Shown here: in pieces, positions 604 through 5,160 of the stretch
Position numbering within the stretch: the first letter of the stretch is position 1
Layout of the letters: the number at the start of each line of letters is the position of its first letter
From: Gemmatimonadaceae bacterium
Lineage (GTDB): Bacteria; Gemmatimonadota; Gemmatimonadetes; Gemmatimonadales; Gemmatimonadaceae
NCBI GenBank assembly: GCA_020846935.1
Contig: JADLCY010000014.1
Span: 186,001-250,000 of the forward strand
DNA: 64,000 nucleotides
Direction of reading: 5' to 3'
Position numbers and translations under genes: made by a program
The notes under the pieces: generated by a model
Databases searched by the model: none
What the model was told of the DNA's origin: nothing
Seen by the model: only the letters and a program-made list of their open reading frames with translations

Positions 604-1872
604 CTACGGCTTGCGGTAGTCCGCCGGGACCGTCCGGTACCGCCGCATGAGTTCGTCCTGCCGGGACGGCCCCTGCACCTCGGCACCCTGGACGAAGACA
701 TGTTCGGCGCGCGTCGACGGTTCGAACGGGTCACCGCTCCACACGACCAGCGTCGCGTCCTTGCCGTTTTCGAGTGATCCGACGCGATTGGCCACGCCGT
801 ACAGTTCCGCCGGCGTCAGCGTCACCGCCCGGAGGGCCGCGTCCCACGGCAACCCGAACGCCACCGCCACGCCGGCCTCGAACCGCACGTTGCGCGCGTT
901 GAACGCGTCCGTGCCGCCCGAGATGATCACGCGAGCCCCCGCGGCGTGCAGCAGCGCGGCGTTGTCCTGCCGCGCACCGAGCGAGGAGAAGTCGCGCGGG
1001 ATGTTGTTGAGTGCGCCGACCAGCACGAACGCCTTCGCCGCCCCGAGCTGATCAGCCACCTTCCAGCCTTCGGTCGCCGAACCCACGGCGATGCGGAGAC
1101 CGTACTGCCTGGCCAACGTGAGCGCCTCCTCGATGTCCGTCGCCCGGTCCGCGTCGACCACGAGCGGAAGCGTACCAGCCAGGACCGGTTGGAGCGCCCG
1201 CAGGTCGGCGAGTCCGGCCGCGAGCGGGCGAGACGCGTTGCGCTCATAACCGGCCCGGAGCGTCGGCAGCGCCCGCGCGTCGTCGAAGACATCACGCAGC
1301 CGCGCATACACCTCCGCACGCGCCGCCCCGATGCGTGCGCCGCGCGCGTTGAGGTCAGCGAACATTGCTGCCGGGCCGCGCATGAGCACATCGGCCAGGG
1401 AGCCGTTGCGCAGGGCAACCACCGCGCCCTGGCCGCCGACCAGCGATCCACTCGGGATGATGCCCACCGTGGTGATGCCGTCGTTCCGCGTCACCTGGAG
1501 CAGCGGTGACGCCGGGTTGAATCCCTCCCACACCCGGAACGATGCCGTGACGCCGTCACCAGTCCCCTGGGCGCCGGCGTCGTACGATCCGGGGATCTGC
1601 CCGATCTCCGAGACGCCTAACGACGTCGTGGCATTGAAGATGCCCGGCGTCACCCACTTGCCCGTGCCGTCGATGCGCCTGGCGCCCGCCGGAACCGCTA
1701 CGCCGGCGCCCACGGCGCTGATGCGACCGTTGGTGATGACCACCGTGGCGTTGTCGACCGGCGGCCCATTCACCGGAAACACTCGTGCGCCGGTGATCGC
1801 GACCACCTGGGCGGGCAGTGGCAAGGTGGTGGTGGCGGCCAGCGCTGCCGCCGCTACGATGCGCGCGATCAT
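604..1872 (-). CDS. Secreted amidohydrolase paralogue lacking the metal-binding histidines
   Basis: A 422-residue protein of the metal-dependent amidohydrolase (imidazolonepropionase-like) superfamily. A cleavable signal peptide (MIARIVAAAALAATTTLPLP, then AQ) sends it to the periplasm. The fold markers are present: an N-terminal beta domain with ITNGRISAVG, VTPGIF near residues 74-79, GGTDAF, and the C-terminal GSLENGKDATLVVW strand. The metal-binding HxH that should follow is replaced by T82 and S84 (NATTS), and the later ligand histidines are also absent, so a hydrolase role is doubtful. The start is the ATG at 1872, which overlaps the upstream gene's TGA by four bases. It is therefore translationally coupled to the intact paralogue at 1869-3329 and may be its non-catalytic partner. 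Confidence 0.85.
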   Translation of the reverse strand: MIARIVAAAALAATTTLPLPAQVVAITGARVFPVNGPPVDNATVVITNGRISAVGAGVAVPAGARRIDGTGKWVTPGIFNATTSLGVSEIGQIPGSYDAGAQGTGDGVTASFRVWEGFNPASPLLQVTRNDGITTVGIIPSGSLVGGQGAVVALRNGSLADVLMRGPAAMFADLNARGARIGAARAEVYARLRDVFDDARALPTLRAGYERNASRPLAAGLADLRALQPVLAGTLPLVVDADRATDIEEALTLARQYGLRIAVGSATEGWKVADQLGAAKAFVLVGALNNIPRDFSSLGARQDNAALLHAAGARVIISGGTDAFNARNVRFEAGVAVAFGLPWDAALRAVTLTPAELYGVANRVGSLENGKDATLVVWSGDPFEPSTRAEHVFVQGAEVQGPSRQDELMRRYRTVPADYRKP

Positions 1873-3329
1873 CGCTTGCTCCCTCCCGCCGGCTCCGGCA
1901 CAAAGCCCAGCTCGAAGTCCGTGCGCCAGCGTTGCGTCGGATCGAGCCGATCGAAGCTCAGCGCGCCGTCGATCCAGACCTTCTCCGGCCTCGCGTAAAT
2001 GCTGAACGGGTGCTTGTCCCACAGCACCACGTCCGCGTTCTTGCCCGCCTCCAGCGAACCAATGCGATCGTCGAGGCCGAGCACCCAGGCTGGGTTGATC
2101 GTGATCCACTTGATCGCGTCCTCGTCCGAGACATTGATCCCGAGCCCGCGCGCCTCGCTCACACTTTTGGCGACGTCCTGGTTGAGGCGTTGCATGCCGC
2201 TTCCATCGTCGGAGTGCACCACCGCTCGCCCGCCGGCGTTGTGGAACAGCGCCAGGTTCGCGCGCACACCGTCCATCGCCTCGATCTTGAAGCCACCCCA
2301 GTCAGACCAGAGCGATGCCGAGATGCCCTTGGACGTGAGCAGGTCGGCGATCTTGTACGCCTCAACGCCGTGGTGAAACGAGCGGATGCGGAACCCGAAC
2401 TCGTCGGCGACTTCCATGGCGCCTTCCATGTCCGCGGCAGTGTAGCAGTGCCACTGCACGAAGATGTTGCCGCGCAGGACCTCGGCGAGCGATTCCATCG
2501 CCAGGTCGCGGGCCGGCGGCTCTCCCTTACGGTCCGCGAGCCACTTGTCCCAGCGCCGCCGGTATTGCTCGGCCTGGATGTACTGTGCCCGCCACCCCGC
2601 CACATTCCCCATGCGGGTGGACGGTCCCCGTTGCGCGTACACACGCTTCGGGTTCTCGCCGCAGGCTTGCTTGAGCCCGTAGCGCGCGCCGGGAAACTTC
2701 ATCCCGCGCACGGTGGCCGAGGGGACGACCTTGAGCACGACCGAGCGTCCGCCGATGAGGTTCGCGGAGCCGGGAAGGATCTGGATGGTCGTTACGCCCG
2801 CGGCGAGCGCCCGCGGGAACTGCGGATCCTGAGGCCAGACCGAGTGCTCCGCCCACACGTTAGGCGTCGATGGGTTGGTCATTTCGTTCCCATCCGAGAG
2901 GGCCTCGACGGGCGGAGCCGCGTACACGCCCAGGTGCGAATGCGTATCGATGATACCGGGCGTGATGAACTTCCCGGTGCCGTCGATCGTCACTGCGTCC
3001 GCGGGCGCGGACACGGTGGCGCCGACGGCGACGATCTTGCCCCCCTGCAGGAGGACGGAGCCGCCCCGGATGGTGGTCCCCGTGGCGGTCATGACCGTCG
3101 CATTCCGGATGACGGTCGTGCGCGCCGGGCCGGGGCGGTACGTGCTCGGGAAGGGGTTGGCGTTGGGCTCCGACAGGGCTCCGGCTCCGGGAGCGACACG
3201 CTGGGCGGTGTCCGGAGTCTGGGCGGCGGGGGCGGGCATCGGGACCGGCGTCGGGGGCGGGGCGGCCTGTGGGGTGTTACACCCGGTGACGGCCAATCCC
3301 AGAGCCAGCGGCAGGGCGCGGATTTTCAC
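1869..3329 (-). CDS. Secreted lipoprotein amidohydrolase with intact HxH site
   Basis: A 486-residue amidohydrolase-superfamily protein. The start is GTG at 3329, chosen because a strong GGAGGAGG ribosome site lies just upstream and because it gives a lipoprotein signal peptide (VKIRALPLALGLAVTGC, lipid-modified Cys at 17). A Pro/Ala linker to about residue 40 precedes the enzyme domain. FITPGIIDTHSHLG at about 122-134 carries the two metal histidines (H130, H132); later WHCY, SFHHG and VHSDDG supply the other ligands. The substrate cannot be read from sequence; relatives cleave cyclic amides or dipeptides. It is first in a two-gene minus-strand unit with the histidine-less paralogue and is divergent from the ECF sigma gene. 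Confidence 0.88.
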   Translation of the reverse strand: MKIRALPLALGLAVTGCNTPQAAPPPTPVPMPAPAAQTPDTAQRVAPGAGALSEPNANPFPSTYRPGPARTTVIRNATVMTATGTTIRGGSVLLQGGKIVAVGATVSAPADAVTIDGTGKFITPGIIDTHSHLGVYAAPPVEALSDGNEMTNPSTPNVWAEHSVWPQDPQFPRALAAGVTTIQILPGSANLIGGRSVVLKVVPSATVRGMKFPGARYGLKQACGENPKRVYAQRGPSTRMGNVAGWRAQYIQAEQYRRRWDKWLADRKGEPPARDLAMESLAEVLRGNIFVQWHCYTAADMEGAMEVADEFGFRIRSFHHGVEAYKIADLLTSKGISASLWSDWGGFKIEAMDGVRANLALFHNAGGRAVVHSDDGSGMQRLNQDVAKSVSEARGLGINVSDEDAIKWITINPAWVLGLDDRIGSLEAGKNADVVLWDKHPFSIYARPEKVWIDGALSFDRLDPTQRWRTDFELGFVPEPAGGSKR

Positions 3330-3499: not shown

Positions 3500-4054
3500 A
3501 TGACCGCAGGTGACCGTTTCCCACCCGATGCGACGGATGCCGACCTCATCGCCCGCTGGCAGGGCGGGGACGAGCGGGCGGCGACGTTTCTGGTGGAGCG
3601 CCACGCGGAGCCGGTCGCGCGCTATGTAGCGAGTCTCGGACTGCGGAGCGGGGTGGAGGAGGTCGTCCAGGACACGTTCGTGCGGGCGTTTGGCTCGCTC
3701 GGTTCGTTCCGGGGCGACAGTACGCTGAGGACGTGGTTGTTCACGATCGCGCGACGCCTGGTGGCGGATTCGCGGCGGACGTTGCGGCGGCAGCGCGATG
3801 TGGTCGAAGTGCAGGAGGGCGATGCTTCCACCGAGTTCGACCCGCTGGACGACCTGATCGCCGATGAGTCGCGCCAGCGGATGCACGAGGTGATCGGTCG
3901 GCTGTCGCCGACCCAGCGCGAGGTCTTCCTGTTGCGGGTGAACGAAGGGTTGTCCTACAAGGAAATTGCAGGGGTGGTCGGGACCACCGAGGGCGCGGCC
4001 CGGGTGCACTACCACAATGCTCTGCGGCATGTGAAGGAGAGTCTGTATGTCTGA
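3500..4054 (+). CDS. ECF-family RNA polymerase sigma factor
   Basis: A 184-residue extracytoplasmic-function sigma factor that redirects RNA polymerase. Region 2 covers about residues 18-90 (DADLIARWQGGDERAATFLV, then EEVVQDTFVRAF and FRGDSTLRTWLFTIARR). Region 4 covers about residues 125-180 (LSPTQREVFLLRVNEGLSYK followed by the EIAGVVGTTEGAARVHYHNA helix-turn-helix). There is no region 3, as expected for ECF sigmas. The start ATG at 3500 was chosen because the open frame upstream has no sigma similarity. The next gene starts eight bases before its stop and encodes a zinc-finger anti-sigma factor, its likely inhibitor. Confidence 0.93.
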   Translation: MTAGDRFPPDATDADLIARWQGGDERAATFLVERHAEPVARYVASLGLRSGVEEVVQDTFVRAFGSLGSFRGDSTLRTWLFTIARRLVADSRRTLRRQRDVVEVQEGDASTEFDPLDDLIADESRQRMHEVIGRLSPTQREVFLLRVNEGLSYKEIAGVVGTTEGAARVHYHNALRHVKESLYV

Positions 4055-4628
4055 TTGCCTGAACGTCGAGGTGCGTGAGCGCCTTCCCGAGCTGCTGCTC
4101 GGCGCGCTCCCCTCCGGGGAGCGGGCCGTCGTCGAGGCACACCTGGCGACGTGCGCGGAATGCGCTGCCGAACTCGAGGTGCTGCGCGGTGCGCAAGCGG
4201 TGTATCGAGGCAGGCGCGTGCCGCGCATCGATACGGCCGCCATCGTGGCCGCGTTGCCGCGGCGGCCAGCGGCGGCCCGGCCACCCGCACGGCGGTCCTT
4301 TGCCACGCAGTGGCGCATCGCGGCGGTGGTGACGTTCGTGGCCCTGGGCGGGCTCTCGCTGACCACCGTGCGTCGCTACTTCGGGCACGTCCCCACGGTC
4401 GACACGCTCGCAGTCGCGCCGGCGGTCGCCACCACGGGGCCTGCGGTGGATTCTCCGTCCGCGGTGCGGCCGGTGGGACTGTCGGCGGGCGGAGGACTCA
4501 CCGACCTCCAGGACGATGACATCGAGACCTTGATCGGCGCCCTCGACCGGATCGAAGCGGCGCCGCACGTCGAGCCGGATACGAGCGCGTTCCTTCGCAT
4601 CGTATCCGGGGCGACCGGAGGGAACTGA
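4047..4628 (+). CDS. Membrane anti-sigma factor with zinc-binding anti-sigma domain
   Basis: A 193-residue protein predicted to hold the adjacent sigma factor at the membrane. The N-terminal domain has the HxxxCxxC signature of zinc anti-sigma domains (AHLATCAECAAEL, residues about 31-43). A single transmembrane helix at about residues 90-107 (WRIAAVVTFVALGGLSLTTV) separates it from a short periplasmic tail with no recognised sensor domain. It overlaps the sigma gene by eight bases and is followed one base later by a Spy-like secreted protein. The three form one likely operon: sigma, anti-sigma and a periplasmic partner. Confidence 0.9.
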   Translation: MSDCLNVEVRERLPELLLGALPSGERAVVEAHLATCAECAAELEVLRGAQAVYRGRRVPRIDTAAIVAALPRRPAAARPPARRSFATQWRIAAVVTFVALGGLSLTTVRRYFGHVPTVDTLAVAPAVATTGPAVDSPSAVRPVGLSAGGGLTDLQDDDIETLIGALDRIEAAPHVEPDTSAFLRIVSGATGGN

Positions 4629-4629
4629 C

Positions 4630-5160
4630 GTGGGACGAACCATGCTGTTGTTGGTCGCTATCGCCACGGTGGCCGCGCCGCTCGGCGCGCAGCGTCCTCA
4701 GACGGCGCGCGAAGACCGCGCCACGCTCGAGAAGCGCTTTCACGAGCGGCTCGAGGCGGTGTTGCGTCAGCGCCTGGGGCTGACCGATGACCAGGTTCGG
4801 CGGCTGCAGGATGCCAACGGCCGATTCGAGGCACGCCGTCGCGACTTGTTCACCGAGGAGCGCCAGGTGCGCACGGACCTGCGGCGTGCCGTCGGCAGCG
4901 ATAGCGCGACGGCCACCAACGACGAAGTCGCGGCGCTGCTCGATCGCGCGATGCGCGTCCAGCGACAGCGCTTCGACCTCATGGAGGCGGAGCAGAAGGA
5001 GCTGGCCACCTTCCTCACACCCATCCAGCGCGCGCGCTATTTCGGCTTGCTGGAGCAGGTCCGCCGGCAGATGGATGACATGCGATATCGCCGGGAGGAC
5101 AGCGCCAGGCGCAGCCCGTCGCCGGTGCGTCGACCGTACCCGTCGCGCGGGGGCCCTTGA
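4630..5160 (+). CDS. Secreted Spy/CpxP-like helical protein (LTxxQ motif)
   Basis: A 176-residue exported protein. The signal peptide is MGRTMLLLVAIATVAAPLG ending AQ. GTG at 4630 gives the positively charged n-region; ATG at 4642 is the alternative start. The mature part is almost all charged amphipathic helix, with LTDDQVRRLQ matching the LTxxQ motif of Spy/CpxP/CnrX-type periplasmic proteins, and a second LTPIQRARY. Family members are folding chaperones or metal/stress sensors that tune a membrane anti-sigma or sensor kinase. The location one base after the anti-sigma gene favours a sensor or feedback role, but this is inference. The C-terminal 30 residues are Arg/Pro/Ser-rich and probably disordered. 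Confidence 0.75.
   Translation: MGRTMLLLVAIATVAAPLGAQRPQTAREDRATLEKRFHERLEAVLRQRLGLTDDQVRRLQDANGRFEARRRDLFTEERQVRTDLRRAVGSDSATATNDEVAALLDRAMRVQRQRFDLMEAEQKELATFLTPIQRARYFGLLEQVRRQMDDMRYRREDSARRSPSPVRRPYPSRGGP

Follow-up and report, generated by a model that had tools for sequence, protein, structure and literature searches.

The window analysed here, a stretch of 64,000 nucleotides from a Gemmatimonadaceae bacterium, contains two adjacent genes of the amidohydrolase superfamily, which are designated A and B (Table 1). Gene A starts with GTG at 3329 and ends with TGA at 1869, and its product possesses the lipobox LAVTGC, whereas gene B extends from an ATG at 1872 to a stop at 604 and encodes a signal peptide ending in ...LPAQ, the A-Q end of which is kept in 41-43 of 44 orthologues. 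Both mature proteins would be located in the periplasm. A first-pass annotation of this DNA had described an ATGA overlap between the two genes and a common fold for their products. The overlap is borne out, with both genes lying on the minus strand (no strand had been given previously), and translational coupling of A and B through it is likely. The common fold is also upheld, as the two proteins are paralogues with 28% identity over 412 columns (BLASTP, E 7e-32) and both are closest to the same solved structure. Divergent from gene A, on the plus strand at 3500-5160 of the window, is a group of genes identified by reading alone: an ORF for an ECF-type sigma factor comes first, and behind it lie what appear to be an anti-sigma gene and a gene for a small, secreted, helical product; as far as could be seen, this group has no relation to the A/B pair.

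Table 1. Features of the A/B gene pair, in window coordinates
Feature	Position	Strand	Evidence
Gene A, amidohydrolase-superfamily lipoprotein, predicted active, 486 aa	1869..3329	-	3ooq match E 4.7e-70, invariant ligands
Gene B, pseudo-amidohydrolase, 422 aa, Sec signal	604..1872	-	3ooq match E 7.9e-42, metal ligands absent, predicted fold intact
ATGA stop/start overlap of A and B	1869..1872	-	sequence
A HSH (H130-x-H132), metal ligands after strand 1	2934..2942	-	sequence, orthologue alignment
A K220 in LKQACGENPKR	2670..2672	-	invariant
A H294 (QWHCY), metal ligand	2448..2450	-	invariant
A H320 (SFHHG), metal ligand	2370..2372	-	invariant
A D374 (VHSDDG), catalytic/metal Asp	2208..2210	-	invariant
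B T82-T-S84 in place of HxH	1621..1629	-	sequence, orthologue alignment

Metal site and fold of the two proteins

Both proteins scored over the cut-offs of the Pfam models PF01979 and PF07969 (25 and 29.7 bits, respectively), with 55.8 and 60.6 bits for A and 46.2 and 30.6 bits for B. In NCBIfam, no model came near its cut-off with either protein, and the Xaa-Pro dipeptidase model NF051886 reached 46 bits with A and 44.7 bits with B, far under its cut-off of 500 bits. The closest solved relative of A as well as of B is PDB 3ooq, an amidohydrolase of Thermotoga maritima to which the records consulted assign no function.

All the motifs that the first-pass annotation had listed for A (H130/H132, WHCY, SFHHG and VHSDDG) are present. 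The first of them, TPGIIDTHSHLG, holds H130 and H132; within SFHHG, conservation across the wider family falls on the second His. When A is aligned with 3ooq, H130, H132, K220, H294, H320 and D374 are all found together with the GENPKR stretch, and this set is common to A and 3ooq. Judging from its position, K220 is probably the carbamylated bridging Lys, a residue conserved in A and absent from B. The substitution of Thr82 and Ser84 for the HxH histidines of B, which had been proposed along with the replacement of the later ligands, is evident in the alignment: the B motif TPGIFNATTSLG, containing T82 and S84, falls where A has HxH, and DAD, GSA and GGTD occupy the later ligand positions. Aligned with 3ooq, the ligand columns of B read T82 and S84, then F, D, S and G.

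This contrast was examined in 44 gene pairs of Gemmatimonadota. One of the 44 aligned A orthologues is cut short, and the ligand residues are invariant in all 43 that have letters at these columns, whereas the B columns show a scatter of unconserved residues across the 44 orthologues, which indicates that the difference between the A and B metal sites did not arise by chance. While approximately 114 residue positions of B are conserved at a level of at least 88% among the 44 orthologues, no His reaches this level, so a replacement site based on His is unlikely, and an alternative metal site in B was rejected on this ground.

Structure prediction of the window B protein with AF2 yielded an intact amidohydrolase barrel, comprising a full barrel and a composite beta domain (pLDDT 88.6, pTM 0.89); a complete alternative metal site, the finding that would speak against the first-pass interpretation, was not detected in this ordinary and well-predicted fold. 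In a Foldseek search with the B model, 3ooq ranked first (E 1.5e-34, TM 0.78-0.86), followed by Cc2672, molinate hydrolase and prolidases. Inside the chain, pLDDT falls below 50 only at residues 95-101, just after the strand that formerly carried HxH, and this stretch is surrounded by residues conserved in B (E89, G103, N119, S122 and R129). From the model, this region may be a loop that contacts the partner.

Distribution, arrangement and history of the partnership

Conserved pairing was found in Gemmatimonadota. Among the loci in which close B relatives were examined, 44 of 44 have the B gene immediately downstream of an A orthologue and in the same orientation, with degenerate columns in place of HxH in B. 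Pairwise dN/dS values are 0.14-0.30 for B and 0.11-0.22 for A, the former implying that B is constrained by purifying selection. A second locus in the genome of the window (L021) encodes a 1048-aa fusion. A pseudo domain, designated P (DASADLG), makes up its N-terminal half, and an A domain with the metal set (DPHTHSG; 40% to window A) its C-terminal half; a B relative (DAYSTVG) follows this P-A fusion with a four-base overlap. At the locus L042 (G019:C6:145118-149392), the A beside B survives only as its C-terminal 182 residues and a full A-like match lies approximately 2.5 kb upstream (142180-143340), possibly as a result of a frameshift, insertion or partial duplication.

A wider survey, in which named genomes were searched with an A-domain alignment, gave 80 loci belonging to Bacteroidota, Ignavibacteriota, Balneolota, Planctomycetota, Verrucomicrobiota, Acidobacteriota, Eisenbacteria, Marinimicrobia, Fimbriimonadales, Gemmatimonadota and Pseudomonadota, so that the partnership of an active and a dead domain spans at least nine, about ten, bacterial phyla. 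In eight tracked columns the A domain reads HHKENHHD at all 80 loci, and neither P nor B keeps this set; the B of one Planctomycetaceae locus (L104, 2878-4359) has His at both HxH columns and lacks the other metal ligands. The commonest arrangement is a P-A fusion followed by B, and others include separate P, A and B genes, P with an A-B fusion (L099, L114 and L116, the last a 951-aa form from Acidobacteria) and one P-A-B triple fusion of 1394 aa in a single ORF (L151). The two-gene view of the first-pass annotation holds for the window, which has the two-part A-B form without P, but most lineages add the second pseudo domain before A. The joining of A to P, to B or to both in one protein is classic evidence for joint action of the products. 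A second subtype, in which KMANGTN replaces GENPKR, likewise consists of an adjacent active (HHKTNHHD) and degenerate pair and was found in Bacteroidota and Gemmatimonadota (L090, L097 and L180-L184). Clustering of 484 ORFs around the 80 loci revealed no family present in more than seven loci, and those that recur are lineage-specific, thus offering no pathway context for the system.

An AF2 model of a natural P-A fusion from Balneolales has a pTM of 0.89 over 956 aa, which suggests two barrels with a defined relative placement; among the best PDB matches, no chain spans two such barrels. In the P-A fusion of L170 (model ma98732c46f33), residues 416-513 form a predicted all-beta domain of approximately 100 residues between the barrels, for which Pfam gave no identification.

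The association is also preserved where the genes are separated. B is not next to P-A in 8 of the 80 loci, and in 7 of these 8 it is found elsewhere in the genome. Among 80 sampled genomes of Bacteroidota, A and B (E <1e-150 and <1e-115, respectively) occur in exactly the same 42 genomes (Fisher p 1e-23, shared ancestry not being corrected for), and in 5 of the 42 (G178, G200, G204, G220 and G236) the two lie on different contigs or approximately 1 Mb apart. Such co-occurrence of unlinked genes rules out operon hitch-hiking as the sole explanation. The active and degenerate members of the second subtype co-occur in 22 of 22 cases. A His-less gene occurring alone, which would likewise have told against the first-pass interpretation, was never observed, given the 44 loci with B after A, the 42 shared genomes and the natural fusions. 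One MAG (G176) lacks B, and G185, from Bacteroidota, is the only sampled genome that has P-A, in a damaged form, and no B. Its locus (L185, G185:C2, ORF from 3453) is an open frame of 2531 aa containing P and then a truncated A without the Asp column, which may reflect decay or rearrangement of this copy.

In a careful tree of 71 domains, all active domains (A, the second subtype and 3ooq) fall on one side and the pseudo domains on the opposite side (support 80/90), with L090_Bq as a single long-branch exception; P and A each form a clade (both 100/99). This topology favours, but does not prove, a history in which the metal site was lost once, early on, since support at the deepest nodes is modest and the outgroups are long-branched, one of them falling on the pseudo side. 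Across the 80 loci, the A, B and P distances are correlated (r 0.69-0.85; 0.75 for A and B), and the pseudo domains evolve faster than A.

Active and dead paralogues as proposed subunits of one enzyme

We consider it likely that A and B belong to a single cell-envelope enzyme, an obligate periplasmic heteromer in which A is the catalytic and B a non-catalytic subunit, and the heteromeric periplasmic enzyme suggested by the first-pass annotation is supported, as a prediction, as the best reading of the data. A would be a metal-dependent amidohydrolase (HxH, Lys, His, His, Asp) anchored by its lipid at the periplasmic side. B, an old paralogue of A without metal ligands and with the barrel kept, would be made right after A by means of the overlapping start codon and would bind it, most likely providing part of the oligomer interface and a loop that closes the active site of A, which would be stable or active only together with B. 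Where present, P may serve as a further non-catalytic paralogous subunit that, like B, completes the interface and probably the lid of A. Both the physical complex and the dependence of A activity on B are what we infer from these data. The recurrence of active and dead domains together across phyla suggests a hitherto uncharacterised complex dependent on dead copies of its own enzyme, and probably a widespread, unnamed envelope enzyme whose active amidohydrolase works only with one or two of them (A-B or P-A-B); the metal site would have been lost once, long ago, and the arrangement retained in about ten phyla. The active lineage may also occur on its own, 3ooq being crystallised as one protein.

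Other explanations were weighed against this one. B, and P as well, could be a separate enzyme or binding protein of the same pathway, with a pocket that works without metal or has been altered and that might, for example, bind the substrate or product of A. The intact barrel and the conserved polar residues N290, R327, N328 and E89 near its mouth agree with such a role; however, there is no conserved His, the columns that once carried ligands are filled by small, hydrophobic or polar residues without conservation, and the fusions of A to either pseudo partner, as well as the triple fusion, suit subunits better. Moreover, ligand binding and a subunit role are compatible in one protein. On balance, an independent function of this kind is unlikely. 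Even less probable is that B does no more than assist the folding or export of A as a chaperone, without becoming a lasting subunit: although B is made immediately after A, probably coupled in translation, and shares its compartment, the natural A-B and P-A-B fusions hold the domains together permanently, and the fold of B is the enzyme's own barrel.

It may also be asked whether B is simply a decaying duplicate of A held by operon linkage, so that the pairing reflects shared inheritance and not function, as the paralogy, the tandem layout and the faster evolution of the pseudo domains might suggest. This idea is scarcely tenable in view of the dN/dS of B, its retention in all 44 loci and in about ten phyla, its persistence when unlinked from A and its intact predicted fold; the dN/dS and the retention led us to reject it.

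Enzymes that need a dead relative are a kind already known, and the A/B pair matches the enzyme-pseudoenzyme heteromer in its obligate co-occurrence (42/42 genomes and 44/44 loci) and its natural partner fusions. Heterodimeric M16 peptidases of the mitochondrial processing peptidase type combine a catalytic and a degenerate paralogous subunit into one enzyme, but their fold and metal motif are unrelated to those of A and B. The dihydropyrimidinase-related proteins (CRMPs, e.g., PDB 4b90 and 1kcx) have an amidohydrolase fold without a metal site and oligomerise; unlike B, they are eukaryotic cytoskeletal regulators and are not obligate partners of an adjacent active paralogue. Within the open-licence papers searched, nothing was found on an active amidohydrolase in complex with inactive paralogues of itself, and the only item on point for tandem or pseudoenzyme amidohydrolases was the class A2 aspartate transcarbamoylase of Pseudomonas, in which a pseudo-dihydroorotase is inactive yet needed for assembly and activity (PMC7053772). 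That complex, the nearest parallel in the superfamily, also places an inactive chain of the amidohydrolase superfamily beside an active enzyme; however, its active partner is an unrelated transcarbamoylase and it is cytosolic, whereas in the window the active partner is the pseudoenzyme's own paralogue and resides in the envelope, and the P-A-B system has up to two pseudo domains.

Such genes are probably annotated simply as 'amidohydrolase family protein' in many genomes, a generic name under which the non-catalytic members pass for enzymes, and any work on the active member is likely to leave its partners out. The pairing also offers a possible explanation if amidohydrolases of this type do not work when expressed alone. 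The linked, unlinked, fused, split and triple-fused forms provide a natural experiment on why an enzyme keeps dead copies, with interface, lid or regulation as candidate roles. Although 3ooq has the same fold as A and B, it is a single protein in its entry, with no pseudo partner known from these data, and its aligned chain lacks a visible secretion signal. The next-best structural neighbours, Xaa-Pro dipeptidases and an Arg/Lys carboxypeptidase (PDB 3feq, 3n2c and 3mtw), are metal-dependent C-N hydrolases of the same superfamily and, unlike A and B, single-gene enzymes as deposited; by analogy with these fold neighbours, the substrate of A might be a periplasmic dipeptide or a related amide.
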